Part shown: positions 5,676 through 58,130 of the stretch, piece after piece | How the letters are laid out: every line of letters begins with the position of its first letter | Position numbering within the stretch: the first letter of the stretch is position 1 | Origin: Candidatus Eisenbacteria bacterium | GTDB lineage: Bacteria; Eisenbacteria; RBG-16-71-46 | DNA: 64,000 nt | Assembly: GCA_020847735.1 (NCBI GenBank) | Contig: JADLBL010000024.1 | Span: forward strand, 1-64,000 | Reading direction: 5' to 3' | Notes under the pieces: model-generated | Told to the model about the DNA's origin: nothing | The model's input: only the letters and a program-made list of their open reading frames with translations | Database searches by the model: none | Made by a program: the position numbers and the translations under genes

Positions 5676-7775
5676 GTGAAAGAGTTCCCCACTGCACAGA
5701 TCCGGAACGTCGCCCTGGTCGCACACCACGGAGTCGGCAAGACGTCGCTGGCGGAGGCGATGCTCTTCAACGCGAAGGCGACGACCCGGCTGGGGCGGAT
5801 CTCCGACGGCACCACGCTGCTCGACCACGCCCCCGACGAGATCTCGCGGCAGATCACCATCGACCTGGGACTCGCCCAGTTCGAGTGGGCGGGACACAAG
5901 GTCAACCTGCTCGACACGCCGGGGTATCCGGACTTCGTTGGGGACGTCTACAGCGCCCTGAGGGTGGCGGACGCCGCGATCCTCGTGATCCGCGCCAGCG
6001 CTGGAGTCGAGGTCGGCACCGAGGTCGTCTGGGAGGTGCTCAAGCAGGAGAAGAGCCCGATCCTGGTCGTCGTGAACATGATGGACAAGGAGCACGCCGA
6101 CTTCGCGGCGGCGGTCCGCAGCTGTCACGATCGTCTCGGCCTGAACGCGGTGGCGGTGCAGATCCCGATCGGCGAGGCGGAGCAGTTCTCCGGCATCGTG
6201 GACCTGATCGAGAACCGGGCGTGGCAGTTCACCGGGCGAGGGGTGGAGGAGAAGAGCCAGGAGATCCCGATTCCGGCCGAGCTCGCGGAACGCGCCGCCG
6301 CGGCGCGCGCGACGCTCATGGAGGAGGCCGCGACCGGCGATGAGAGTCTCATGGAGAAGTTCCTCTCGAGCGGCGAGCTGTCGGTCGAGGAGATCCGCAA
6401 GGGACTCTGCGAACGGGTCGTGATGTGCGATCTGGCCCCGGTGTTCTGCTGCTCGGCGTACCACAACCTCGGAGTCAAGGAAGTGCTCGACGAGGTCGCG
6501 GACGTCCTCCCCTCGCCACTCGACGTCCATCCCCAGAAGGGCCCGAGCGGCGGCGACGGGGCCGTGGTTGAGATCCGGCCCGAGGCCACGGCTCCGGTTG
6601 CGGCCACCGTGTTCAAGACGCTGGCCGAAGCACACCTCGGCGAGTTGTCGCTCATTCGTCTCTGGGCCGGGCACCTCGAGCCGGGCAAGGAACTCCTCAA
6701 CACTTCGCGCGCACGCTCCGAGAAGATGGGCACGCTCTACCACCTGACCGGAAAGGAAAGGTCGGACTGCAAGGGCGCCGCCGCCGGCGACATCGTCGCG
6801 GCGGTCAAGCTGCGCGAAACGCACACCGGGGACACGCTGGCCGACAAGGCGCGACCGGTGAAGCTGGCGGCCCCGGACTTTCCCGATCCCGTCACGGCCG
6901 AGTGCATCCGCTCGAAGAACAAGGGGGACGAGGAGAAGATGGCGCAGGGCATCGCGCGCCTGCACGAGGAGGATCCGACGCTCGCGCGCGGATACGAGGA
7001 GAGCACCCGGGAACACCTCGTCTTCGGCATGGGCGACCTGCACCTCGAGATCCTCGTCGAGCGCCTCAAGAAGCGCTTCGGCGTGGACGTGCTGCTCAGC
7101 AAGCCGCACGTTCCGTACCGCGAGACGATCCGCGGCAAGGCGCAGGACGAATACCGCCACAAGAAACAGTCCGGCGGCCGCGGCCAGTTCGGCGAGGTGC
7201 ACCTCAAGGTCGAGCCGCTTCCGCGTGGCGGGAAGTTCCTGTTCGTGGACGAGATCAAGGGCGGGGTGATTCCCGGGCAATACATTCCCGCCGTCGAGAA
7301 GGGCGTCGTCGCCGGCATGGAGAAGGGGCCGCTCGCCGGCTACCCGGTCGTGGACGTGCGGGTCGCGGTGTTCTTCGGCAAGTACCACGACGTGGACTCC
7401 TCGGAAATGGCGTTCAAGATCGCGGCCGAGACCTGCTTCCACCAGGTCGTGCTCAAGGCCTCTCCCGTGCTGCTCGAGCCGTTCAGCGACCTCGAAGTGC
7501 GCGTGCCGGAGGAGTTCCTCGGCGACGTGATGGGGGACATGTCCTCGCGCCGGGGCAAGATTCTCGGCACCGAAGCGAGCGGCCACTACCAGGTCATCAA
7601 GGCCAAGGTTCCCGCCGCCGAGCTCTACAAGTACGCCTCGCACCTGCGCTCGATCACGCAGGGCAGAGGCATGCACCACGCCAAGCTGTCGCACTACGAG
7701 GAAGTGCCGCGCGAAATCGCCGAGAAGGTCATCGCCGCGGCGCGGGCCGAGAAGGAGGCGGGCGCGAACGCCTAG
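5676..7775 (+). CDS. elongation factor G-like translational GTPase (EF-G paralogue)
   Basis: 699 residues with the five-domain layout of EF-G. G1 is A-H-H-G-V-G-K-T (residues 16-23), the G2 threonine is in R-Q-I-T-I-D, and G3 is D-T-P-G (80-83). G4 reads N-M-M-D (134-137) instead of N-K-x-D, so the usual lysine is replaced by methionine. Domain IV carries the H-K-K-Q-S-G-G-R-G-Q-F-G motif. The A-H-H-G...K-T-S-L form of G1 is typical of the EF-G-like (FusA2-type) group, not the main translocase, which is usually in the str operon. The GTG start at 5676 has GGGAGGT at 5664-5670. It probably acts in translation or ribosome recycling; the exact role is unknown. Confidence 0.9.
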   Translation: MKEFPTAQIRNVALVAHHGVGKTSLAEAMLFNAKATTRLGRISDGTTLLDHAPDEISRQITIDLGLAQFEWAGHKVNLLDTPGYPDFVGDVYSALRVADAAILVIRASAGVEVGTEVVWEVLKQEKSPILVVVNMMDKEHADFAAAVRSCHDRLGLNAVAVQIPIGEAEQFSGIVDLIENRAWQFTGRGVEEKSQEIPIPAELAERAAAARATLMEEAATGDESLMEKFLSSGELSVEEIRKGLCERVVMCDLAPVFCCSAYHNLGVKEVLDEVADVLPSPLDVHPQKGPSGGDGAVVEIRPEATAPVAATVFKTLAEAHLGELSLIRLWAGHLEPGKELLNTSRARSEKMGTLYHLTGKERSDCKGAAAGDIVAAVKLRETHTGDTLADKARPVKLAAPDFPDPVTAECIRSKNKGDEEKMAQGIARLHEEDPTLARGYEESTREHLVFGMGDLHLEILVERLKKRFGVDVLLSKPHVPYRETIRGKAQDEYRHKKQSGGRGQFGEVHLKVEPLPRGGKFLFVDEIKGGVIPGQYIPAVEKGVVAGMEKGPLAGYPVVDVRVAVFFGKYHDVDSSEMAFKIAAETCFHQVVLKASPVLLEPFSDLEVRVPEEFLGDVMGDMSSRRGKILGTEASGHYQVIKAKVPAAELYKYASHLRSITQGRGMHHAKLSHYEEVPREIAEKVIAAARAEKEAGANA

Positions 7776-7841
7776 CGGGGACGGCCCGCGGGCCCGCCGC
7801 CGGCGGGTTCGCGGACTCTTCCGGCCGGGCGCCCGGGACGC

Positions 7842-8588
7842 ATGTCGGGCCACTCCAAATGGTCGACGATCAAGCGCAAGAAGGCCGCGACCGACGCCGC
7901 CCGCGGCAAGGCCTTCACCCGGATCATCAAGGAGATCACCCTTGCCGCCCGGGCCGGCGGCGACCCTGACGGGAATCCGCGCCTGCGGACGGCGATCCAG
8001 GCCGCCAAGGCGGTGAACATGCCGGCGGCCAACATCGAGCGGGCGGTCCGAAAGGGTACGGGCGAACTCGACGGCGCGACGATCGAGGAGATGCACTTCG
8101 AAGGATACGGACCTCACGGGGTTGCGATCCTCGTCGAGTGCGCGACCGACAATCGCAATCGTGCCGCGAACGACATTCGCCACCTTTTCACGCGCTTCGG
8201 CGGCAGCCTCGCCGCCGCCGGAGCCGTGTCGTACCTGTTTCGGACGCGAGGCGTGATCGTCGTGGACCGGGCAGCGATCGCCGAGGACGCTCTGCTGGAG
8301 TTGGCCCTGGAGGCGGGCGCGGAGGACGTCGTCGCCGAAGGAGCCACGTTCGAGGTCCTGACGCCGCCGTCGGCGTTCGAGTCGGTGCGCGAGGCGCTGG
8401 CCGCCCGCTCGGTCGCGATGTCCAGCGCGGAGGTGACCCGGCTCGCCTCGATCCACGTGACGCTGACCGAGCAGGGGGCCGGCAGCGTGCTCAGGCTCAT
8501 CGAGCAACTCGAGGAGAATGACGACGTCCAGAAGGTCTACGCGAACTTCCTCCTTCCCGACGAAGTCCTTGCGAAGCTCACGCAATAG
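7842..8588 (+). CDS. yebC: YebC/PmpR family protein
   Basis: 248 residues, the normal length. It starts with the family signature M-S-G-H-S-K-W-S-T-I-K-R-K-K and has the G-T-G-E-L-D-G and Y-E-G-Y-G-P-H-G-type blocks (here F-E-G-Y-G-P-H-G). YebC proteins were annotated as transcriptional regulators, and more recent work links them to translation of difficult motifs such as polyproline. The gene sits immediately upstream of ruvC (7 nt gap), the conserved yebC-ruvCAB order, and 66 nt after the EF-G-like gene. Confidence 0.96.
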   Translation: MSGHSKWSTIKRKKAATDAARGKAFTRIIKEITLAARAGGDPDGNPRLRTAIQAAKAVNMPAANIERAVRKGTGELDGATIEEMHFEGYGPHGVAILVECATDNRNRAANDIRHLFTRFGGSLAAAGAVSYLFRTRGVIVVDRAAIAEDALLELALEAGAEDVVAEGATFEVLTPPSAFESVREALAARSVAMSSAEVTRLASIHVTLTEQGAGSVLRLIEQLEENDDVQKVYANFLLPDEVLAKLTQ

Positions 8589-9141: not shown

Positions 9142-9770
9142 TCGCCTCGCTGCGCGGCCAGTTGCTGGAGCGGGGCGAGGGCTGGTGCGTCCTCGAGGCC
9201 GGAGGGGTGGGTTACCTCGTTCAGGTCTCCTCGCACACGCTCGCGGCGCTCCCGCCGGCCGGCACTGAAGCGCGCCTGCGCACGCGCCAGATCGTGCGCG
9301 AGGATGCCCTGCTGCTCTTCGGCTTCGCGAACGCGGACGAGCTGAGGCTCTTCGATCTGCTCATCGGGGTGAGCGGCGTGGGCCCGAGGCTCGCGCTCGC
9401 CGCGCTCTCGGGACTCGCCCCGGCGGCGCTCGTGCGTGCGATCCGGGAGGAGCAGATCGGCGCGATCGTCGCGGTGCCGGGCATCGGCCGCAAGACGGCC
9501 GAGCGGCTCGTGGTCGAACTGCGGGACAAGCTCGACTTCCTGCCGGCCGGTTCCGCCACGGCCGGCGCTCGCGGACGGGAGGCGGGAGTCCTGCCGCGTT
9601 CCGAGCGCTTCGACGACGCCGTCGCGGCGCTGGTGACGCTCGGCTATTCTGCGACGCAGGCGCAGGACGCCGTTCGCAAGGCCGGGGGCGAACAGCCCGA
9701 CCTTTCCCTCGAAGACATCGTGAAGCGCGCCCTGCTTCGGCTGGCGAAGCCGGCGGTCGTCTCGCGCTGA
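9138..9770 (+). CDS. ruvA: Holliday junction branch migration protein RuvA
   Basis: RuvA forms the tetramer that binds the four-way junction and loads RuvB. 210 residues from a GTG start that overlaps the ruvC stop by 4 nt. The N-terminal OB-fold begins I-A-S-L-R-G-Q. Two helix-hairpin-helix motifs (V-S-G-V-G-P-R-L-A and [12 protein letters not shown]) occupy the middle. The C-terminal UBA-like domain ([10 protein letters not shown]) contacts RuvB. ruvB starts 17 nt later. Confidence 0.96.
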
Positions 9771-9787
9771 AGGATCCGGATACCGCC

Positions 9788-10870
9788 ATGAGCGACAAGC
9801 CCCGCAGGATCACCGGTGAGCGACCCGGCCGGCTCGCCGACCCCGCGCCGCTCCCCGAGGACGCACGCGAGGAAAAACGCCTGCGGCCCTCGGCGCTGTC
9901 GGAGTTCGTGGGCCAGCCGCAGATCCGTGAGCCGCTCGCCATCTTCCTCGAGGCGGCCCGGCGCCGCGGCGAAGCGCTCGACCACGTGCTGTTCCACGGG
10001 CCGCCCGGGCTCGGCAAGACGACGCTGGCCAGCATCCTGGCGCACGAGCTGGGGGTCGAGATCACGCACACGTCGGGGCCGGTGATCGAGAAGGCCGGCG
10101 ACCTCGCCGGCCTTCTCACCAACCTCGGACCGCGCGGGATCCTTTTCGTGGACGAGATCCATCGCCTCAGCCCGATCGTCGAGGAGTACCTCTACAGCGC
10201 GCTCGAGGACTTCACGCTCGACGTGCTGATCGACCGCGGACCGAGCGCCCGTTCGCTCAAGCTCAATCTCGAGCCGTTCACGCTCGTCGGGGCCACGACG
10301 CGATCCGGCCTGCTCTCGGCGCCGATGCGGGCCCGCTTCGGGGTCACGCTGCGCATGGACTTCTACGCGGTCGAGGACCTGCGGCACATCGTCCGCCGAT
10401 CCGCGGGCATTCTCGAAACGGTGGTGGACGACGACGCGGCCCGCGAGATCGCCCGGCGCTCGCGCGGCACCCCGCGCGTCGCCAATCGGCTGCTCCGCCG
10501 GGTTCGGGACTTCGCGCTCATCAAGTCCGACGGCCGGGTGGAACTCGGCGTCACCCGCGAGGCGCTTCGCCTGCTGGAGGTGGATGAGCGCGGCCTCGAC
10601 GAGATGGACCGGCGCATGCTCGAAGCGCTCATCCAGCGGTACGACGGCGGTCCGGTCGGACTGCAGTCGCTCGCGGTCGTGCTCGGGGAGGACGCCGGAA
10701 CGCTCGAGGACGTCTATGAGCCGTTTCTCGTGCAGGAGGGATTCGTGCGGCGCACCGCGCGTGGCCGGGAGGCGACGCGTCTGGCTTACGAGCACCTGTC
10801 GGTGCCGCTGCCGGCGCGGCTGCGCGACGGCGAGTCGCGGACCGACCAGCCGGAACTGCCACTCGCCTGA
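9788..10870 (+). CDS. ruvB: Holliday junction branch migration ATPase RuvB
   Basis: 360-residue AAA+ motor of branch migration. Walker A is G-P-P-G-L-G-K-T-T and Walker B is F-V-D-E-I-H. Sensor 1 lies in V-G-A-T-T-R and the arginine finger region in R-A-R-F-G. A winged-helix C-terminal domain ([10 protein letters not shown]) follows. The N-terminal conserved block [12 protein letters not shown] is present. Last gene of the ruvCAB set; queA follows after 14 nt and is likely in the same transcript. Confidence 0.97.
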
Positions 10871-49025: not shown

Positions 49026-49721
49026 TTACTCCTCGCCGCGGCCTTCGGCGATCGAGCGGAGTCGCTCCAGGGACGGCACCAGGAACCGCCGCTCGCCGGT
49101 GACGAGCACTCCCTCGCGGTTCCAGCGCGAAAGCGTGCGGATCGCCGACTCGACGGTGGTGCCGACCAGTTCGGCCACCTCCTGGCGCGAGAGCGGCACC
49201 GGGATCTCGGTGCCCGCCGCGGTCGCCCTGCCGGAACGCTCGGCAAGCCCGAGGAAGAGTTGCGCGATGCGCACCTCGACGCGCTGCCCGCGCATTTCCT
49301 CGACCTTTCGCGCCAGCATCATGTTGAGACGGGTGAGATGGAGGATCAGGCGGCGCGACAGGTCGGGGTGACGCTCGAGCAGATCGAACCAGTGCGCGGC
49401 GGGCACGCACAGGATCGCCGTCGGCTCCATGACGATCGCCGATGCCGGGTAGGGCATGCGGTTGTAGACCGCGACCGCCCCGACGGACTCACCGCGGCCG
49501 AAGATCTCGAGGATGACGTCTCCGCCGGTTCCGTGGCGCACGACCTTGACGCGGCCGCTCACGATCAGCGTCAGGGTCTCGGCCGGATCTCCCGCGGTCC
49601 ACAGCACGTCGCCCTTGTGCAGGTCGCGCAGGGTCGCCATCGTCTCGATCCGCTGCTGGTCCTCCGACGGCAGGCCGCGAAACATCGGCTGCGAGCGAAC
49701 GGCCGCTTGAATGCGCTCCAT
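49026..49721 (-). CDS. Crp/Fnr family transcriptional regulator
   Basis: 231 residues. A cyclic-nucleotide-binding-type beta-roll (about 15-130) is followed by a long dimer helix and a winged helix-turn-helix (S-R-Q-E-V-A-E-L-V-G-T-T-V-E-S-A-I-R near residue 180). The recognition helix keeps E and R at the positions that read TGA-type half-sites in FNR-like proteins. It has only one cysteine (L-C-V-P), so it cannot hold an FNR-type Fe-S cluster. A DNR/NNR-like haem sensor of nitric oxide or another ligand is possible. It is divergent from the hemerythrin-nos cluster and is the obvious candidate regulator. An in-frame TTG at 49736 with GGAG upstream is an alternative start. Confidence 0.9.
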   Translation of the reverse strand: MERIQAAVRSQPMFRGLPSEDQQRIETMATLRDLHKGDVLWTAGDPAETLTLIVSGRVKVVRHGTGGDVILEIFGRGESVGAVAVYNRMPYPASAIVMEPTAILCVPAAHWFDLLERHPDLSRRLILHLTRLNMMLARKVEEMRGQRVEVRIAQLFLGLAERSGRATAAGTEIPVPLSRQEVAELVGTTVESAIRTLSRWNREGVLVTGERRFLVPSLERLRSIAEGRGEE

Positions 49722-50045
49722 GCGCGGGTCGGACAAGGAGATTCTCCGGAAGCGGCTGAGCGGGAGGGCGGGCCCGCGGCCGGTGCCTGGCGTGCAGGAG
49801 TGGGTGGTTTCGGGTGACGACCGGACTGTGGCTCCCGGATCGGTCCGCCAGGTGGAGCCGTGGAGCGGACTTCGGCCCCCGGGACCCGGTCCGGGCTCTC
49901 GCTCGCGCAGCATCGCCCACGCCCGTCCGGCGGCGCAACCGCCCGCCGCGGTGCAGGCCCGTCCCGGAGCCGCCGAACCGGAGAATCCACGGCCGGCATG
50001 ACGGGCGTCATACGCGCAGTGGCGCGGACGGGCGATGTTGTCCGC
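49722..50045. other. divergent control region between the Crp/Fnr gene and the hemerythrin-nos cluster
   Basis: About 324 nt without a supported gene. It is mostly GC-rich and unstructured. Its clearest signal is the 14-bp palindrome at 49998-50011, listed separately. A GATGTT box at 50032-50037 could be a -10 element placed about 20 nt after the palindrome. No clear promoter was found reading toward the regulator gene. Confidence 0.6.
49998..50011. promoter_or_regulatory. FNR/DNR-like operator, TGAC-N4-GTCA
   Basis: ATGACG-GG-CGTCAT forms a palindrome with perfect 6-bp arms. The core TGAC-N4-GTCA has the half-site spacing of FNR/FixK/DNR boxes (consensus TTGAT-N4-ATCAA, with TTGAC-N4-GTCAA variants). 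It is centred about 41 nt ahead of the hemerythrin ATG, next to a Crp/Fnr gene whose recognition helix keeps E and R. If the start site is near 50044-50046 this would be a class II activator position and the transcript nearly leaderless. Binding is inferred. Confidence 0.6.
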
Positions 50046-50567
50046 ATGAGACCGGACGATCGCTGCTCCGACGACCCGTTCGCGGTCTTTCGTCGAGACC
50101 ATGATCGCGTGCTGGGGCGCCTCGCGCGGCTCGAGACGGAGTTCCGCTCGGGCCGGGTCCCGCTCGACGACGGGCTGCTGAACGAACTGGTCGCGCACCT
50201 CGAGCGGCAGTTCGCCACGCACATGGCGGCCGAGGACTCGGTGCTCTACCCCGCGCTGCGCGCGGCCTTTCCGGGGGCGGCGAGCACGATCGATCCGCTG
50301 CTGGCCGATCACGCGGAGTTGCGGGCGATGCTGTCCGCGCTCGCCGAACAACTTTCCCGACCCCGGGAACGCGCCCGCGACGAACAGGTCGAGGTGCTCG
50401 TCCGGGATCTCTCCGACCTGCTCCGACTCCACATCCACCGGGAGGAGTCGGTCGTCTTCGACGTGGCCGCCCGCGTGCTCTCGCGCGCGGAGATCGCGGC
50501 GTTGACGGTCGGCCTCGACACGCTCATGCGTGAACCTCCGGACTCACGTGCCCCGCAGGGACACTGA
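50046..50567 (+). CDS. hemerythrin (HHE) domain protein
   Basis: 173 residues. A four-helix hemerythrin-like domain with the di-iron ligands in place: H19 (R-R-D-H-D), H59 and E63 (T-H-M-A-A-E), H89 (A-D-H-A-E-L) and H129/E133 (L-H-I-H-R-E-E). Such proteins bind oxygen or nitric oxide or help repair iron centres. It is first in the row ahead of the cytochrome and nosZ (13 nt before the cytochrome gene). This fits protection or sensing of NO/O2 during N2O respiration. A 41-codon remnant of a second copy lies at 57359. Confidence 0.9.
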   Translation: MRPDDRCSDDPFAVFRRDHDRVLGRLARLETEFRSGRVPLDDGLLNELVAHLERQFATHMAAEDSVLYPALRAAFPGAASTIDPLLADHAELRAMLSALAEQLSRPRERARDEQVEVLVRDLSDLLRLHIHREESVVFDVAARVLSRAEIAALTVGLDTLMREPPDSRAPQGH

Positions 50568-51095
50568 AAGGATTCCATTCATGAACCGGTACGCAACCTG
50601 CCTGCTTGTTTCCGCCCTCGTCGTGCTCGCCGGCTGCGGCGGCAAGGCCGAGGACCAGGGTTCCTCCTCCGCCTCGGCCAGCCCGGCGCCCGCCGCGGGC
50701 AAGCTGCTCGCGAAGTCGCTCTACGACGACGGCCCGCGGGCGGCCGACTCGCCGGTGGACGCCGCCGCGGCCGCCGCCGGAGAGAAGCTCTTCTCGACCA
50801 AGGGCTGCACGGCCTGCCACGCATGGGGCAGGAAGCTGACCGGGCCGGATCTCAAGGACGTGACGAAGCAGCGCACCGCCACCTGGATGGAGAATCAGAT
50901 TCTGCACCCCGACGTGATGGTCAAGACGGACCCCATCGCGCGCGCGCTGTTCGCGCAATTCGCGCTGCAGATGCCCAAGCAGGGGCTGACCGAAACGGAA
51001 GCGAAGCAGGTGGTCGAGTACCTGAAGAAGCGCGACAAGGACGGCAAGTAGTTCCCGGCCGACAGGGAAGGCCTGGGCCCGTCCGGGCCCCGGCT
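50442..51095 (+). repeat. segmental duplication, copy A (intact hemerythrin 3' end plus cytochrome)
   Basis: The last 41 codons of hemerythrin, the 13-nt spacer, the entire cytochrome c gene and about 40 nt downstream are repeated at 57359-58022. The stretch from 50442 to the cytochrome start aligns without gaps at an offset of 6917. The homology includes the stop codon and the AAAGGAT ribosome-binding region. Both copies carry a GGGCCC-centred hairpin about 25 nt after the cytochrome stop. Confidence 0.85.
50581..51051 (+). CDS. lipoprotein mono-haem cytochrome c of the nos cluster (copy 1)
   Basis: 156 residues. A lipobox L-A-G-C (C19) makes it a membrane-anchored lipoprotein. A Ser/Ala-rich linker follows. 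The haem site is C-T-A-C-H (about residues 80-84), with a likely axial Met in D-V-M-V-K or L-Q-M-P. It is the probable electron donor to NosZ, as c-type cytochromes (nosC) are in clade II nos clusters. A close paralogue (about four-fifths identical by eye) lies after nosY at 57498. AAAGGATT precedes the ATG. Confidence 0.92.
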   Translation: MNRYATCLLVSALVVLAGCGGKAEDQGSSSASASPAPAAGKLLAKSLYDDGPRAADSPVDAAAAAAGEKLFSTKGCTACHAWGRKLTGPDLKDVTKQRTATWMENQILHPDVMVKTDPIARALFAQFALQMPKQGLTETEAKQVVEYLKKRDKDGK

Positions 51096-51124
51096 CCTGC
51101 CGGATCCCGACAAGGGGGGAGGCC

Positions 51125-53029
51125 ATGAAGCAACGTTGGAAGCTGGCGCTGGCGGTCGCGAGCATTCTCGCGGCGACCGCGGGTTGCATGGCGGCGAACC
51201 GCGGGGGCGGCGCCTCCGGCGACGCCGCCCGCAGGACCTACGTGAAGCCCGGTGAGCACGACGCGTACTACGCATTCCTCTCCGGCGGGCATCACGGCAA
51301 CGTCTACGTCTATGGAATGCCGTCGTGCCGGCACATCACGACCATTCCCGTCTTCACTCCCGAGCCCGCGGTGGGCTACGGATACGACGAGGAGTCGAAG
51401 GCGATGCTCGGCGGGCGGACATGGGGCGACGCGCATCACCCCGGGCTGTCGGAAACCGACGGCAACTACGACGGCCGCTGGCTGTTCATCAACGACATGG
51501 TCAGCGCCCGGATCGCCCGGATCGACCTCGGCGACTTCAAGACGAAGCAGATCTACGGTCCGATCCCCAACCTCTCGGCCGCCCACGCCTGTCCGTTCCC
51601 GACCCCGAACACCGAGTACGTGTTCGCGGCATCGCGCTTCTCGGTTCCGGTGCCGAACCGCCCGGCCCGAGTGCAGGACTACGGCAAGGACTTCCGGGGC
51701 ATCATCGCCGGGATCAAGGTGGATCCGAAGGACGGCACGATGTCCATGGGCTTCGAGATCCTCATGCCGCCGTTCGACTGGGATCTCGCGGACGCCGGCA
51801 AGGGGCCGAGCCACGGCTGGGCCTTCTTCACCTGCTACAACAGCGAGATGGCGTACGACTCGCTCGAGATCAAGGCTTCGCAGAACGAGATGGACTTCTT
51901 CGCCGCCGTGGACTGGCGCGCGGCGCAGAAGGCCGTGGACGAGGGCAAGGCGACGACGATCAACGGCGCGCCCGTGCTCGACCCGGCGAAGGTGCCGGGC
52001 ATCGTCTACCTGGTGCCGGTGCCCAAGAGTCCGCACGGCGTGGACGTGAATCCGACCGGCGAGTACGTCTGCTGCTCGGGCAAGCTGCAGGCGGAGGTCA
52101 GCGTCTACAGCTTCGCGAAGATGATGAAGGCGATCGAGAAGAAGGAGTTCGACGGCGAGCGCATGGGCGTGCCCGTCCTCGAGTTCGACGACTGCCTCGA
52201 GGCGAAGGTTCCGGTCGGGCTCGGTCCGCTGCACACGCAGTTCGACGACAAGGGCAACGCGTACACGTCGCTGTTCCTCGATTCGCAGATCGCGAAGTGG
52301 AAGGTCGGTCCGCCGTGGGACGTGACGGACAAAATCGACGTGTACTACTCGATCGGCCATCTGATGGCCTCCGAAGGCGACACGCGCAACCCCACCGGCG
52401 AGTACGTCGTGGCGCTCGACAAGCTGTCGAAGGACCGCTATCTGAGCGTCGGCCCGACGCATCCCGAGGCGGCCCAGCTCATTGACCTGCGCGGGCCGAA
52501 GATGGAGTTGCTCTACGACTTCCCGACCTATCTCGAGCCGCACTACGCGCAGATGATCCGGGCCGAGAAGCTCAAGCCCTTCACCATCTATCCGCTCGAG
52601 AAGAACAGTCATCCGGACGCCATCAAGCGCGCCGAGGACGCGCGCATCGAGCGCAAGGGCAATCGCGTGGACGTGTACATGCTCGCGGTGCGCACGCACT
52701 TCACCCCCGACATCGTCGTGGCGAACGAGGGCGACGACGTGTACTTCCACGTCACCAACCTCGAGCAGGACGACGACATCGCCCACGGCTTCGGCATCCT
52801 CTGGTCGAACTGCAACATGCAGGTCGAGCCGGGCGAGACGAAGACCATGCACTGGAAGGCCGAGAAGCCGGGGATCGTCCCGTTCTACTGCTCGAACTTC
52901 TGCAGCGCGCTCCACCAGGAGATGCAGGGGCTCATCGAGGTGCGTCCGCGCGGCTCCTCCATCGCGAGCGTGCAGCGGCCCGACCCGGCGAAGACCGCGC
53001 AGATCGCGGCCGAGCTGGGACGGAAGTAG
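51125..53029 (+). CDS. nosZ: nitrous oxide reductase, clade II (Sec-dependent)
   Basis: 634 residues. It reduces N2O to N2 in the periplasm. The N-terminus is a Sec signal with a lipobox A-T-A-G-C (C21) rather than a twin-arginine motif, marking clade II; it may be lipid-anchored. The seven-bladed propeller carries the CuZ ligand block D-A-H-H-P (102-106). The cupredoxin domain near the C-terminus holds the CuA site C589-x3-C593-x3-H597-x2-M600. GGGGGGAGG lies just before the ATG. It is flanked by an upstream cytochrome lipoprotein and the nosB-like, nosD, nosF and nosY genes. Confidence 0.97.
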   Translation: MKQRWKLALAVASILAATAGCMAANRGGGASGDAARRTYVKPGEHDAYYAFLSGGHHGNVYVYGMPSCRHITTIPVFTPEPAVGYGYDEESKAMLGGRTWGDAHHPGLSETDGNYDGRWLFINDMVSARIARIDLGDFKTKQIYGPIPNLSAAHACPFPTPNTEYVFAASRFSVPVPNRPARVQDYGKDFRGIIAGIKVDPKDGTMSMGFEILMPPFDWDLADAGKGPSHGWAFFTCYNSEMAYDSLEIKASQNEMDFFAAVDWRAAQKAVDEGKATTINGAPVLDPAKVPGIVYLVPVPKSPHGVDVNPTGEYVCCSGKLQAEVSVYSFAKMMKAIEKKEFDGERMGVPVLEFDDCLEAKVPVGLGPLHTQFDDKGNAYTSLFLDSQIAKWKVGPPWDVTDKIDVYYSIGHLMASEGDTRNPTGEYVVALDKLSKDRYLSVGPTHPEAAQLIDLRGPKMELLYDFPTYLEPHYAQMIRAEKLKPFTIYPLEKNSHPDAIKRAEDARIERKGNRVDVYMLAVRTHFTPDIVVANEGDDVYFHVTNLEQDDDIAHGFGILWSNCNMQVEPGETKTMHWKAEKPGIVPFYCSNFCSALHQEMQGLIEVRPRGSSIASVQRPDPAKTAQIAAELGRK

Positions 53030-53042
53030 TCGAAACCCGCGC

Positions 53043-53069
53043 GCGGCCGGGGGACCGTCCCCCGGCCGC
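53043..53069 (+). other. 12-bp perfect hairpin between nosZ and the nosB-like gene
   Basis: GCGGCCGGGGGA (53043-53054) pairs perfectly with TCCCCCGGCCGC (53058-53069) around a 3-nt loop. It lies 13 nt after the nosZ stop and 25 nt before the next start. No T run follows. It could protect the nosZ mRNA 3' end and give differential expression within the operon, as hairpins do in other operons. Confidence 0.65.
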
Positions 53070-53094
53070 CGTGGGAATGCTTGGGAGTCGAATC

Positions 53095-53712
53095 GTGAAC
53101 GAGTACCTGACCGGCAAGTTCCGGCCCACGGAGCGCCGCTACATCTTCCTCGCGGCGCTCGTGCTCCTGCCGGTCTTCTTCTTTCCGGTGCTGCATATCT
53201 GGGAGATGCGGATGTGGGCTCCGCAGTACCGCGAAGGGCTGACCCTGCGGATCTACACCAACGAGATTCGCGGTGACGTCGACAAGATCAACACGCTGAA
53301 CCACTACGTGGGCATGAAGGCGCTCCGCAACGAGGACTTCCGGGAGTTCCGCTTCCTGCCGCAGGCACTGACGGGCTTCGGCGTGCTGGCGCTGCTGGCC
53401 GGACTCTTCAACCGCCGCTGGCTCGCGGTGCTCGGCTGGCTCGCGTTCACCGCCTTCGCGGTCGTGATGTTCAAGGACTACGCCACCTGGCTGTACAAGT
53501 ACGGCCACGAGCTCGACCCGCGTGCCGCGATCAAGCTCGAAGCGTTCACGCCGCCGTTCATCGGCTACAACCGGATGGCGAACTTCAAGGTCCTCAGCAT
53601 GCCCGGACCCGGCACCGTGCTGCTCGGGATCGCCTGGCTGCTCGGGCCGCTGACCGTCTGGTTCGAACGCCGGGCCGCGCGCTCGGCGGGGCGTTCCAGC
53701 AGGCGGCAATGA
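53095..53712 (+). CDS. NosB-like inner-membrane protein of the nos cluster
   Basis: 205 residues with about four membrane segments: A-A-L-V-L-L-P-V-F-F-F-P near residue 20, then G-V-L-A-L-L-A-G-L near 95, L-G-W-L-A-F-T-A-F near 115, and L-G-I-A-W-L-L-G-P-L near 180. It sits directly after nosZ and overlaps nosD by ATGA. This is the place of the NosB membrane protein in clade II clusters, whose role is still unclear (electron transfer or maturation). The GTG at 53095 has GGGAG 7 nt upstream. Confidence 0.75.
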   Translation: MNEYLTGKFRPTERRYIFLAALVLLPVFFFPVLHIWEMRMWAPQYREGLTLRIYTNEIRGDVDKINTLNHYVGMKALRNEDFREFRFLPQALTGFGVLALLAGLFNRRWLAVLGWLAFTAFAVVMFKDYATWLYKYGHELDPRAAIKLEAFTPPFIGYNRMANFKVLSMPGPGTVLLGIAWLLGPLTVWFERRAARSAGRSSRRQ

Positions 53713-55097
53713 CCCTGCGCGCCGGAGGGCTGGCGGCGCTTCTCCTGCTCGCGGCGGCATCCGCGGCCGGAGCGCGCGAGACCCTCGTGCCGCCCGGCCG
53801 GGCCGCGGACGCCCTCGCGGCCGCCGCGCCCGGCGACACCATCGTGCTCGCGCGCGGCGTGCACTCGGGCCCGCTCGTCGTCGCGAAGGCGATCGTGCTG
53901 CGGGGGGAGGCGGGCGCGGTGGTGGACGGCGGAGGAAGGGGGTCGGTGCTCACCGTCGGCGTCTCGGGCGCCGTCGTGGAGGATCTCGTCCTCCGGGGCA
54001 GCGGGCGCTCGGTCATGGACGTCGACGCCGGCGTGCGGGTCCTGCTCGGCGCGCACGTCCGCCTCTCGCGACTCGTGCTCACCGACGTGCTCTACGGCGT
54101 CTACGGCGAACGGGCCGACGACCTGCGGATCGAGCAGGTGGACCTCACGGGTCGTTGCCGGCCGCGCGCCGGGCGCGGCGAAGGCAACGGTGTGCATCTG
54201 TGGTACTGCGCTCGGGCCGTCGTGCGCGAGTGTCGCGTCGACCGCTTCATGGACGCCCTCTACCTGTCGTTCGCGCACGGCGCGACGATCGAGGACAACC
54301 TGCTCTACGACAGCGGGCGCTACGGTTTTCACTCGATGTACTGTCAGAATGGCCGATTGGCGCGCAACCGGTTCACTCGAAACATCGCGGGCTGCGCGCT
54401 CATGTTCTCGAACCACCTGGTGATCGAGCGCAACGCGTTCGTCCGCAATCAGGGTCCCCGCACGTACGGGCTCCTGCTTCGCGACTGCTCCGACGGCCGC
54501 TTCGAAGAGAACCGGATCGCGGAGAACACCGTCGGCGTGTTCCTCGACGGCTCGAACCGCAACCAGTTCCGCGGGAACCTCGTCCAGGACAACGGCTGGG
54601 GCGTGTTGATGTTCGCCTCGTGCGCGAAGAACGTCTTCACCGCGAACGACTTCGTGCAGAACGACTACCCGGTCGCGCTCGACATGCGCCGCACCGACAA
54701 CCGCTTCGACGACGGCCGCATGGGCAACTGGTGGAGTGCCCACGCGGCCTACGACCTCGACGACGACGGCGCGGGCGACACCGAGTACGCGCCGGTCGGG
54801 GCGTTCGCGTTCCTGTCGAAGCGGTCGCCCGATCTCACGCTGCTCGCGCACAGCCCCGCGGTCGCGGCGCTGGGCGTCGCGGAGCAGGTGTTCCCGGCGC
54901 TGCGGCCGAGCGAGGCCGTGGATCGATTCCCGCGAGTGCGGCCCGTGCCTCTGGCTCCCGACTCGACCCCGGCGCTGCCCGGTGGCGAGGATGCGCCGCG
55001 ACGCGGAAATAGGAACTGGGCCGGGATGATCGCCTTCGGGACCCTTGCCGCCATTGGAGCGGCGGCACTCGCTTCGAGCGGGGCGTGGCGCGCATGA
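53709..55097 (+). CDS. nosD: NosD, periplasmic copper-site maturation protein
   Basis: 462 residues. A signal peptide (1-22) is followed by a right-handed parallel beta-helix (about 30-360) with repeated N-R-F / N-x-F turns such as L-A-R-N-R-F-T-R-N, F-E-E-N-R-I-A-E-N and F-R-G-N-L-V-Q-D-N. The NosD motif G-N-W-W-S-A-H-A-A-Y-D-L-D-D-D-G is complete. A C-terminal hydrophobic helix (about 440-458) may anchor it. With NosF and NosY it supplies sulfur or copper for CuZ assembly. Overlaps the neighbours by ATGA on both sides. Confidence 0.94.
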   Translation: MTLRAGGLAALLLLAAASAAGARETLVPPGRAADALAAAAPGDTIVLARGVHSGPLVVAKAIVLRGEAGAVVDGGGRGSVLTVGVSGAVVEDLVLRGSGRSVMDVDAGVRVLLGAHVRLSRLVLTDVLYGVYGERADDLRIEQVDLTGRCRPRAGRGEGNGVHLWYCARAVVRECRVDRFMDALYLSFAHGATIEDNLLYDSGRYGFHSMYCQNGRLARNRFTRNIAGCALMFSNHLVIERNAFVRNQGPRTYGLLLRDCSDGRFEENRIAENTVGVFLDGSNRNQFRGNLVQDNGWGVLMFASCAKNVFTANDFVQNDYPVALDMRRTDNRFDDGRMGNWWSAHAAYDLDDDGAGDTEYAPVGAFAFLSKRSPDLTLLAHSPAVAALGVAEQVFPALRPSEAVDRFPRVRPVPLAPDSTPALPGGEDAPRRGNRNWAGMIAFGTLAAIGAAALASSGAWRA

Positions 55098-56008
55098 TCC
55101 GGGTCGAGGGACTCCACAAGCGCTGGGGCGCCGTGCGGGCGGTGGACGGCCTGTCGTTCGAGATCCGGGAGGGCGAGACCTTCGCGCTCATCGGACCGAA
55201 CGGTGCGGGCAAGACGACGACGCTCAAGTGCCTGCTCGGACTCGTGCGCCCGGACTCGGGCAGCATCGAGATCGGACCGGACCGGCTCCCGCCCCACGAT
55301 CCGCGCGCGCGCGCGTCGATCGGCTGGGTGCCGCAGCGCGTCGAGTTCGCCCCCGGCCGGACGGCGTCCGAGGTGCTGACCTTCTTCGCCGAACTGCGCG
55401 GACTGGGTGCGGATGCGGTGGGGGCGGCGATCGAGCGCGTGGGGCTCGGCTCGCACGCCGGGCGCCGGGCGACCGAGCTTTCGGGTGGCTACGCGCAGCG
55501 GCTTTCGCTCGCGCAGGCGCTGCTCGGCGACCCGTCGCTGCTCGTGCTCGATGAGCCGACCGCAAGCCTCGATCCTCAGGCGACGTGGGAGTTCCGCTCG
55601 CTCGTCCTCGAACTGAAGGCGCAGGGCAGGACGATTCTGCTGTGCTCGCACCTGCTCGACGAGGTCGAAAGGGTCTCCGACCGCGTGCTCATCCTGGTCG
55701 GAGGACGCGCCGCCGCGTTGGAAAGCATGTCGGACCTGCGCGCCCGGCAGGTCGGAGCGACGCGGCTGGTGATCGGGCTCGACGACCCCCCCGCGCGAGC
55801 GCTCGCGGTGCTCGAGTCGCGCGGGCTCGACCGGGTCGTCGTCGTCGGCGCCTCCATCGCGGTCGAGGCGCGTGAAGGCCGGTTCCTCGAGGCGCTCGAG
55901 GCTCTGCGTGCCGCGGGCGTGGGGATGAACTCGGTCGAAACGCAGCGCCCTACGCTGGAAGAGGTCTTTCTGGCCGCGGTGCGCGAGCGCGACGGGGTCC
56001 GGGCGTGA
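55094..56008 (+). CDS. nosF: NosF, ABC transporter ATP-binding subunit
   Basis: 304 residues. Walker A is G-P-N-G-A-G-K-T-T (about 38-46). The signature is L-S-G-G-Y-A-Q-R-L and Walker B is L-L-V-L-D-E-P-T-A-S-L-D, followed by the H-loop C-S-H-L-L-D-E. It pairs with NosY to energise NosD-dependent maturation of nitrous oxide reductase. ATG at 55094 overlaps the nosD stop; GTG at 55085 is an alternative. Confidence 0.94.
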   Translation: MIRVEGLHKRWGAVRAVDGLSFEIREGETFALIGPNGAGKTTTLKCLLGLVRPDSGSIEIGPDRLPPHDPRARASIGWVPQRVEFAPGRTASEVLTFFAELRGLGADAVGAAIERVGLGSHAGRRATELSGGYAQRLSLAQALLGDPSLLVLDEPTASLDPQATWEFRSLVLELKAQGRTILLCSHLLDEVERVSDRVLILVGGRAAALESMSDLRARQVGATRLVIGLDDPPARALAVLESRGLDRVVVVGASIAVEAREGRFLEALEALRAAGVGMNSVETQRPTLEEVFLAAVRERDGVRA

Positions 56009-56418
56009 CGCGCCGCTGGCTCGCGCTGGTGCTGCTCGTGTTCGCCGGGGCGGCCGCATTCACGATCGCCGGCCGCCTGCCGCGTCGTGCCGCAGCGCCG
56101 GAATCGCCACCGCCGCCGCCGCCCGTCGAGGCCGACACGCTGGTCGTGGCCGGCGACGAGGCACACCCGCCGCGCATCAGCGCCGTGCTGGGGCACCGGC
56201 TCGCGATCACCGTCATCAACCGGGGTGTCGCCGCCGCGCATCTCGCGCTCTCGGGCTACGAGCACGCGTTCGCCCCACGGTCGCTGGCGCCCGGGGAGGC
56301 GCGGACCGACACGCTGCTGCTCGACCTGCCCGGCGAGGACTTCGCGTGGATGCTCGACGGTCGTCCGGCGGCGCAGCTGCACGTCGCCGGCTCCCACCTC
56401 GCCGAGGGACACCGCTGA
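56005..56418 (+). CDS. small exported cupredoxin-like protein embedded between nosF and nosY
   Basis: 137 residues. The N-terminus is a signal/anchor helix (L-A-L-V-L-L-V-F-A-G), then a proline run (P36-P40). The remaining ~90 residues have a cupredoxin-like strand order: P-P-R-I-S-A-V-L-G-H-R-L-A-I-T-V-I-N-R-G, then A-A-H-L-A-L, then P-G-E-A-R-T-D-T-L-L-L-D-L-P-G. It has no cysteine, so no type 1 copper site. H79, H87, M116 and H126 could bind copper in another way. The GTG start overlaps nosF (GTGA) and the stop overlaps nosY (TGATG), so it is made with the NosFY transporter. Its place suggests a nos accessory role; no nosL is present nearby. Confidence 0.65.
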   Translation: MTRRWLALVLLVFAGAAAFTIAGRLPRRAAAPESPPPPPPVEADTLVVAGDEAHPPRISAVLGHRLAITVINRGVAAAHLALSGYEHAFAPRSLAPGEARTDTLLLDLPGEDFAWMLDGRPAAQLHVAGSHLAEGHR

Positions 56419-57263
56419 TGCCCGCACCCGCCCGGTTTCGAGCCCTCCGCGCGTTCGTCGTCGCGCGGGAGGAATACCGGCGCGCTCTCGAGAGCAAGTG
56501 GCTGTTCGGCTTCGCCGCGCTGTTCGCGCTGCTCGTGCTCGGACTGTCGTTCTTCGGCCTCGCGCAGAGTGGCGAAGTGGGTTTCACGGGCTTCGCGCGG
56601 GTGACCCTGTCCCTGCTCAACCTCGTGCTCTTCGTCGTGCCGCTGGTCGGCCTGATGCTCGGCGTGACGAGCGTGACCGGTGGCGCCGAATCCCTCTCGC
56701 TGCTCCTGGCTCAGCCGGTGTCGCGCACCGAAGTGCTGGCCGGCAAGTTCGTCGGCGTCTCCGCCGCCGTTTCGGTCGCCCAGCTGCTGGGGCTCGGGGG
56801 AGGAGGCCTGGTCGTGGCTCTCAACGCCGGACCCGACCAGCTCGGCGGCTTCGCGGTCCTGTGCGGGGTCTCGCTGGGACTCGCCGTGCTGAGCGTGGCG
56901 TCCGCGCTCGCGATCGCTTCGCTCTGGCCCGATCGCCTGCGGGCGACCGGCGCGGCGCTCGCGCTCTGGTTGCTGATGGTCGTGGCCTACGACCTCGCGG
57001 TGCTGGGCGCGACGACGACCTTTCGCGGCGTCGGTCTGCAGGCGATCCTGCTGCCCGCGCTGCTGCTCAACCCGGTGGATCTGGCGCGCGTGCTCGTGAC
57101 GATGGCCGTGGGCCGGGGCGCGCTCTTTGGTCCGACCGCGGCCACGCTCGTGCGGACGCTGGGCACCGTGCCGGGCATCATCGCCGTGCTGCTCGCGATG
57201 CTCGTGCAGGTGGCCGTGCCGCTCGCGTTGGCGCAGCGCGTCTTCCGCCGCCGCGACTGGTAG
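56418..57263 (+). CDS. nosY: NosY, ABC transporter permease
   Basis: 281 residues with six predicted membrane helices. The N-terminal E-E-Y-R-R-A-L-E-S-K-W-L-F-G-F-A-A-L-F-A is the typical ABC-2 start, and G-A-E-S-L-S-L-L-L-A-Q-P-V-S-R-T-E follows as in NosY proteins. Partner of NosF. The start overlaps the stop of the cupredoxin-like gene by one base. The cluster then ends at the duplicated cytochrome segment. Confidence 0.92.
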   Translation: MPAPARFRALRAFVVAREEYRRALESKWLFGFAALFALLVLGLSFFGLAQSGEVGFTGFARVTLSLLNLVLFVVPLVGLMLGVTSVTGGAESLSLLLAQPVSRTEVLAGKFVGVSAAVSVAQLLGLGGGGLVVALNAGPDQLGGFAVLCGVSLGLAVLSVASALAIASLWPDRLRATGAALALWLLMVVAYDLAVLGATTTFRGVGLQAILLPALLLNPVDLARVLVTMAVGRGALFGPTAATLVRTLGTVPGIIAVLLAMLVQVAVPLALAQRVFRRRDW

Positions 57264-57320
57264 CCGGCGCCCGCCCGGGCCGGTGGCCCGTGCCGCCGGA
57301 CAGGGGCGCACAGGGCGGGT

Positions 57321-57349
57321 TTGCTTCCCCCGGGACGAGCCGATATAAC
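57321..57349 (+). promoter_or_regulatory. putative promoter of the second cytochrome gene
   Basis: TTGCTT (57321-57326), a 17-nt spacer and TATAAC (57344-57349), just before the hemerythrin remnant and about 150 nt ahead of the cytochrome ATG. It would give the second cytochrome copy expression independent of the hemerythrin promoter. Confidence 0.5.
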
Positions 57350-57358
57350 GACTCGCGC

Positions 57359-57484
57359 GAGGAGTCCGTCGTCATCGACGTGGCCGCCCGCGCGCTCTCG
57401 CGCGCGGAGACCGCGGCGTTGACGGCCGGCCTCGACACGCTCATGCGTGCGTCTCCAGAACCACCCGCCCCTCAAGGGCACTGA
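57359..57484 (+). pseudogene. 3' remnant of a hemerythrin gene
   Basis: 126 nt align without gaps to 50442-50567, the last 41 codons and stop of the intact hemerythrin gene. The frame is still open (E-E-S-V-V-I-D-V-A-A-R-A-L-S-R-A-E-T) with about nine amino-acid differences. The start codon and the iron-binding helices 1-3 are absent. Homology stops abruptly at 57359, marking one breakpoint of the duplication. Confidence 0.85.
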
Positions 57485-57497
57485 AAGGATCCAATCC

Positions 57498-57980
57498 ATG
57501 AACCGACGAGTTGTCGTGCTTCTGGCGTCCGCCCTCGTTGTGCTCGCCGGCTGCGGTGGCAAGGCCGAGGACCAGGGAGCCTCCACTTCGGCCAGCCCGG
57601 CGCCCGCGGCGCCCGCTCCCGCCGCGAGCAAGGTGCTTGCGAAGTCGCTGTATGACGATGGCCCGCGGGCGGCCGACTCCCCGGTGGACGCCGCGGCGGC
57701 CGCGGCGGGGGAGAAGCTCTTCACGAAGAAGGGTTGCACCGCCTGCCACGGTTGGGGGAAGAAGCTCACCGGGCCGGACCTGAAGGACGTGACCCGGCAG
57801 CGCACCGCGGTCTGGATGGAGCACCAGATTCTGCACCCGGACGTGATGGTCAAGACCGACCCGATCGCGGACTCGCTCTTCAAGGTCTACAAGCTGCAGA
57901 TGACCAATCAGGGCCTGACGGAGTCGGAAGCGAAGCAGGTGGTCGAGTATCTGAAGAAGCGCGACAAGGACGGCAAGTAG
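57498..57980 (+). CDS. lipoprotein mono-haem cytochrome c of the nos cluster (copy 2)
   Basis: 160 residues. Lipobox L-A-G-C (C19), a longer Ala/Pro linker than copy 1, and haem site C-T-A-C-H. The body K-L-T-G-P-D-L-K-D-V-T and Q-I-L-H-P-D-V-M-V-K-T-D-P are shared with copy 1, and the C-terminal E-A-K-Q-V-V-E-Y-L-K-K-R-D-K is identical. Differences cluster in the linker and at A-D-S-L-F-K-V-Y-K versus A-R-A-L-F-A-Q-F-A. Both copies are intact, so both may act, perhaps with different partners. Confidence 0.92.
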   Translation: MNRRVVVLLASALVVLAGCGGKAEDQGASTSASPAPAAPAPAASKVLAKSLYDDGPRAADSPVDAAAAAAGEKLFTKKGCTACHGWGKKLTGPDLKDVTRQRTAVWMEHQILHPDVMVKTDPIADSLFKVYKLQMTNQGLTESEAKQVVEYLKKRDKDGK

Positions 57981-58130
57981 CCGCCGGTCGAACGAAGCGC
58001 CGGGGCCCGCCCGGACCCCGGTCGCTTCCCGAAGGCGATGAAGCCCCAAAGCCCCCCGAGCCCCACGCTGGTGATTCGCCACGTGATCACGGCGTTCACT
58101 CGCGGCTCGCGGCCCGCGCCGAAATCAATT

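Follow-up and report, generated by a model that had tools for sequence, protein, structure and literature searches.

Gene content and conservation of the nos cluster

The 64,000-nucleotide stretch analyzed here (the window), from contig JADLBL010000024.1 of Candidatus Eisenbacteria assembly GCA_020847735.1, carries at positions 49026–57980 an intact clade II nos cluster, the predicted gene set for reducing nitrous oxide (N2O) to N2. The genes follow one another as crp (reverse strand), hemerythrin, a lipoprotein cytochrome c, nosZ, nosB, nosD, nosF, a cupredoxin-like protein here designated protein X, nosY and a second cytochrome (Table 1). An earlier reading made from the DNA letters only (hereafter the sequence-only reading) had named these ten genes in this order, and all were found, with intact reading frames and, except for the nosB-like protein and protein X, Pfam/NCBIfam matches. 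The open reading frame (ORF) listed for the Crp/Fnr protein, with its end at 50438, is over-extended, the true gene spanning approximately 49026–49736. The hemerythrin gene is separated from the first cytochrome gene by 13 bases. Overlaps of a few bases link nosB to nosD, nosD to nosF, nosF to the gene of protein X and the latter to nosY, and these five genes therefore very likely share a single transcript.

Table 1 Features of the nos locus, with positions in the window.
Feature	Position	Strand	Evidence and remarks
Crp/Fnr-family regulator	49026..49736	-	PF00027, PF13545; divergent; orthologue in relatives 57–66% identical, in equivalent place
Palindrome ATGACGGGCGTCAT, candidate Crp/Fnr operator	49998..50011	.	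Ahead of hemerythrin, in the crp-hemerythrin gap
Hemerythrin HHE-domain protein, first gene of the operon	50046..50567	+	PF01814, E 3e-21; orthologues in equivalent place in seven relatives
Lipoprotein cytochrome c, ancestral copy	50581..51051	+	PF00034; lipobox LAGC, CTACH haem site
nosZ, clade II Sec-dependent N2O reductase, probable lipoprotein	51125..53029	+	TIGR04246, 864 bits; CuA/CuZ ligands
nosB-like membrane protein	53071..53712	+	In other clade II loci, nosZ is directly followed by an ORF 35–76% identical to it
nosD	53709..55097	+	TIGR04247, 352 bits (cut-off 300)
nosF, ABC ATPase	55085..56008	+	PF00005; position in relatives
Protein X, cupredoxin-like	56005..56418	+	One transmembrane helix and a cysteine-free domain; C-terminal GSHLxEGH
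nosY, ABC-2 permease	56418..57263	+	PF12679; overlaps stop codon of protein X
Segmental duplicate of 50439–51131	57356..58044	.	3' end of hemerythrin, cytochrome gene, sequence to the nosZ start codon
Second lipoprotein cytochrome c	57498..57980	+	PF00034; 83% amino acid identity to the first cytochrome (aligned residues)

NosZ exceeded the cut-off of the Sec-dependent model (864 against 625 bits) and stayed under that of the Tat model TIGR04244. When aligned with the 1qni and 9f8x chains, its CuA ligands (H, CxxxC, H, M) and seven CuZ histidines matched the solved structures. The Sec type and the complete copper motifs claimed by the sequence-only reading were thus borne out, but not a canonical lipobox, as the signal peptide ends in T-A-G-C; a cysteine near this end was also present in all eight related NosZ proteins inspected. 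The earlier identification as clade II is likewise supported, by the Sec-type NosZ with its full set of CuA/CuZ ligands, a nosB just downstream and nosDFY, with nosL missing. Since clade II clusters are known to vary in nosL (PMC13274427), the gene was not counted as defining, and its absence should be no bar to membership.

The locus resembles the clade II clusters of Wolinella and Desulfosporosinus in its Sec-exported NosZ, nosB right after nosZ, nosDFY and c-type cytochromes. Unlike them, it is led by hemerythrin and crp, carries protein X between nosF and nosY, has lost nosL and ends in a duplicated cytochrome, in a genome with no NosH-type protein: a genome-wide search found no full-length NapH/NosH-type protein, with TIGR02163 giving one 64-residue piece below its cut-off. 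Of the four genes previously unseen in the window (nosL, nosG, nosH and nosR), the genome-wide searches found no NosL and no full-length NosH-type protein; NosG and NosR were covered within the window only.

Within the phylum, 10 of 47 genomes encode a true NosZ, the window genome (G000) among them, and the nearest NosZ loci from named genomes belong to Candidatus Eisenbacteria (79–80% identity). We read the nos loci gene by gene in the nine other Eisenbacteria genomes (two on partial contigs) and in one locus from outside the phylum (L003). The order crp (reverse strand), hemerythrin, cytochrome, nosZ, nosB, nosD, nosF, nosL where present, protein X and nosY was kept wherever the contigs permit reading, except that crp was missing from the stretch covered in G034, and hemerythrin from G012 and L003. 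This comparison had been set beforehand as a test of the sequence-only reading, and the arrangement was indeed present, including hemerythrin and the first cytochrome. A cytochrome c gene directly upstream of nosZ is conserved in the Eisenbacteria loci and L003. In a comparison with the 80 closest NosZ loci of named genomes, such a gene was also frequent in groups such as Bacteroidota and Leptospirota; a strongly matching hemerythrin near nosZ was found in Eisenbacteria only. The conserved gene order thus marks the hemerythrin lead as a lineage feature. It had been called unusual, which holds for nos clusters generally; within the phylum hemerythrin pairs with a divergent crp and precedes nirK as well.

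The possibility that the cluster is a recent island found no support, as purA and tRNA-Lys flank it in both the window genome and G028. In two genus mates devoid of nosZ (G022, L132 2731–7716; G021, L133 1760–6469), genes that by eye resemble a cbb3 oxidase cluster lie directly downstream of purA, where the window and G028 have their nos genes. Upstream of nosZ at a Limnochordaceae locus (L010) are two separate ORFs (7775–8299 and 9749–10240), each for a lone cupredoxin similar to the CuA domain of NosZ.

Loss of nosL and retention of protein X

A NosL gene with the clade II CxxCxM motif (PMC6530538) lies between nosF and the gene of protein X in G024, G034, G028, G045, G012 and L003. In the window, G025, G038 and G039, nosF is directly followed by protein X. 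As PF05573 alone under-detects NosL, with true copies (e.g. L112, L118) falling below its cut-off, a negative result with that model was not relied on; instead, a NosL profile (A1) was built from the five NosL copies known in Eisenbacteria, all of which it recovers, including the divergent one of G012. With this profile no NosL was found anywhere in the four nosL-free genomes (completeness 94–100%), among them the window genome, which is 99.56% complete and also gave no PF05573 match. The nosL-free loci do not form a single clade on a nos-protein tree with several weak nodes, which implies that nosL was probably lost at least twice within the phylum. Loss of NosL alone is not new: three of the four nos clusters in a Schinkia isolate are without nosL (PMC13274427), and a Paracoccus delta-nosL mutant has a phenotype only under copper limitation (PMC6530538).

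Protein X was found in nine of the 47 genomes, all with nosZ, and in none without it; in the tenth nosZ genome (G046) the contig ends ahead of its position. It matched no Pfam or NCBIfam family above threshold. Its AlphaFold2 model (pLDDT 88) consists of an N-terminal helix and a cupredoxin sandwich, for which the best Foldseek matches were EfeO, FtrB and Cupredoxin_1 (PDB 7wgu, 8vuk and 4hcf; query TM about 0.55). These proteins share the overall cupredoxin fold with protein X at 11–22% identity, and differ from it in that protein X has a transmembrane anchor and a conserved GSHLxEGH motif at its C-terminus. No cysteine occurs in any protein X sequence examined, which rules out type 1 and CuA copper sites; a blue-copper or CuA cupredoxin was accordingly rejected by motif for want of a Cys ligand. 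Membership in the NosL family was rejected as well: compared to NosL, the copper chaperone of the CuZ site (PMC6530538), protein X is cupredoxin-like, has no cysteine and hence no CxxCxM, gave no PF05573 match and is not a homologue.

The two proteins are nevertheless closely associated. Two Bacteroidetes genomes carry, between nosF and nosY, one ORF for a NosL that continues into an X domain (L024 15610–16395 and L020 8805–9626), with no such fusion found on plasmids, and separate NosL and X genes are adjacent in five Eisenbacteria genomes and L003. From this fusion and co-location we infer that protein X is a functional partner of NosL. Its retention after the loss of NosL suggests that it can act without NosL, and it is probably a partner of, or stand-in for, NosL in the copper maturation of NosZ.

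The operator, its candidate regulon and the duplicated cytochrome

The palindrome ATGAC-N4-GTCAT (ATGACGGGCGTCAT) in the crp-hemerythrin gap occurs once in the window, against 0.01 expected. It is exact in the equivalent gaps of L109, L110 and L113 and shows small departures in L112, L114 and L115. Genome-wide there are two exact copies (none for the reversed control), the second ahead of an operon (contig C20; L141 1743–7064) that encodes a CuA subunit II and, downstream of it, a heme-copper subunit I, together with a cytochrome b whose end resembles a ferredoxin. Subunit I has Gln at the position of the cross-linked Tyr237 of ba3 oxidase (GHSSQQ vs GHPIVY), a substitution diagnostic of the nitric oxide (NO) reductase eNOR (PMC8756737), with which the operon also shares the position of CuA subunit II before subunit I. 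On this one diagnostic residue and the gene order, the operon is best described as encoding an eNOR-like NO reductase. Elsewhere in the window genome (contig C7; L138 1456–2892) lies the gene of another divergent heme-copper oxidase subunit I, 478 amino acids long, with that of an SCO-like protein after it.

In 14 relatives we counted 36 boxes, compared to six for the reversed control. Among other positions, they precede nos genes, eNOR and nirK (G020, G021), crp-hemerythrin-nirK (G022, G026) and an nnrS-like gene (G028). The series crp, box, hemerythrin and nirK was observed in nosZ-free relatives (L173 2201–5105 and L175 1086–3970), and the C-terminal part of the L173 NirK weakly matches a ccoP cytochrome. 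The head of the nos operon thus looks like an N-oxide regulon module: that divergent crp and hemerythrin head nirK as well as nos operons would fit NO handling or N-oxide signalling, not a nos-specific role. NCBIfam names no specific type for the regulator. An oxygen-sensing FNR was rejected, as the protein has a single cysteine and no four-cysteine FNR-type Fe-S motif; going by its targets and the lack of this motif, it may be a haem-dependent NO sensor of the DNR/NnrR kind.

Searched in the same way, the genus mates G020–G022 have a close nirK and no nosZ, and the window genome has nosZ and no nirK. Among the 20 genomes of the family, seven have a strong nirK and five nosZ without overlap, a pattern with a chance probability of about 0.08, which is not significant and at most suggestive; it would be consistent with a split of N2O production and consumption between sister species.

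The sequence-only reading described the cluster as bracketed by paralogous lipoprotein cytochromes. The two are indeed the sole copies in the genome and each other's closest relatives, grouped with 100% support, and the second can now be specified as a lineage-specific segmental duplicate that did not belong to the ancestral cluster. In a local alignment, 50439–51131 pairs with 57356–58044 at 86% identity (575 identities, 92 mismatches; score 761, compared to at most 33 in shuffles). The copied segment begins within the hemerythrin gene, of which 57356–57484 is a fragment, spans the cytochrome and stops at the nosZ start codon; in G028 the space from nosY to tRNA-Lys holds no counterpart. As the ratio of nonsynonymous to synonymous substitution rates (dN/dS) between the two genes is 0.22, the duplicate is maintained under purifying selection. 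The duplicated segment carries no copy of the operator, so that the second cytochrome would rely on read-through or a new promoter; neither a terminator nor a promoter was found in the gap between nosY and this gene, and an Rfam scan returned tRNA-Lys only. In G038 an extra lipoprotein cytochrome c lies beside crp, tail to tail with it (L113 2102–2614), perhaps a parallel duplication.

Proposed function and alternative readings

We consider it probable that the locus is a functional operon for clade II N2O respiration, with a Crp-controlled box, NosL-free maturation aided by protein X, and anchored cytochromes as donors. Gene content, order, conservation, duplication, nosL absence, the fold of protein X and the distribution of the box were read from the sequence, and from these every functional step is inferred. 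The divergent Crp/Fnr protein would bind TGAC-N4-GTCA ahead of hemerythrin and turn on hem-cyt-nosZBDFXY together with the eNOR-like operon elsewhere, the signal most likely being NO or low oxygen. NosZ would be exported unfolded by Sec and then lipid-anchored, and its copper-sulfur CuZ site would be assembled by NosD, NosF and NosY; with NosL lost, protein X as the ancestral NosL partner would serve NosDFY in copper delivery or docking. Electrons would pass from the quinone pool through a postulated bc-type complex to an anchored cytochrome c and on to CuA, with no NosGH module involved, and the terminal duplicate may raise the cytochrome dose or supply a variant donor. The probable role of hemerythrin is to bind NO or O2 and to shield iron or copper sites.

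Several observations weigh against this scheme. No sigma-70 promoter was found, and about 22 of the 36 boxes in the relatives lie near genes not recognised as N-oxide genes. Protein X has few invariant residues and no cysteine, which leaves any copper binding putative; the NosL-X fusion occurs in a single lineage only, and as nosL has been lost elsewhere in clade II, in Schinkia (PMC13274427), protein X need not compensate for it. The locus might then be an ordinary clade II cluster, with hemerythrin, protein X and the duplicated cytochrome as incidental neighbours and nosL dispensable at sufficient copper. The Paracoccus deletion mutant, which has no phenotype under such conditions (PMC6530538), the existence of nosL-free clusters (PMC13274427) and the frequency of a c-type cytochrome gene before nosZ in clade II all agree with this. 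We nonetheless regard it as unlikely, since hemerythrin, cytochrome and protein X hold their positions across the families of the phylum, protein X is confined to nosZ genomes and elsewhere fused to NosL, and the box ties crp-hemerythrin to other N-oxide genes.

Its cupredoxin fold and a weak profile match with the CuA domain of NosZ could instead make protein X an electron-transfer protein feeding NosZ, not a maturation factor; with no cysteine for a type 1 or CuA site, and with its fusion to a copper chaperone, we find this very improbable. Still less credible is a decaying, non-functional locus, as might be read from the missing nosL, the hemerythrin fragment left by partial duplication and the absence of nosZ from the four other genomes of the genus, for the remaining ORFs are intact with conserved ligands, the cytochrome dN/dS is low and nosL is also missing from intact clusters of other genera.

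Beyond what is known of clade II nos clusters, protein X and the operator are the parts of the proposed N2O-respiration operon most worth attention. Tentatively, and with less confidence than in the operon itself, protein X could represent an undescribed NosZ copper-maturation family that took over the role of NosL, allowing NosL-free CuZ assembly in several Eisenbacteria lineages within a Crp/hemerythrin regulon uniting NosZ and eNOR. Among known biological sinks of N2O, NosZ is the main one, and little is known of how clade II organisms load its copper sites. Retained alongside nosZ after the chaperone was lost, and fused to that chaperone elsewhere, protein X offers a direct, testable lead on copper maturation, and the common operator defines a candidate regulon of nos, eNOR, nirK, nnrS and hemerythrin in a phylum represented here by metagenome-assembled genomes.

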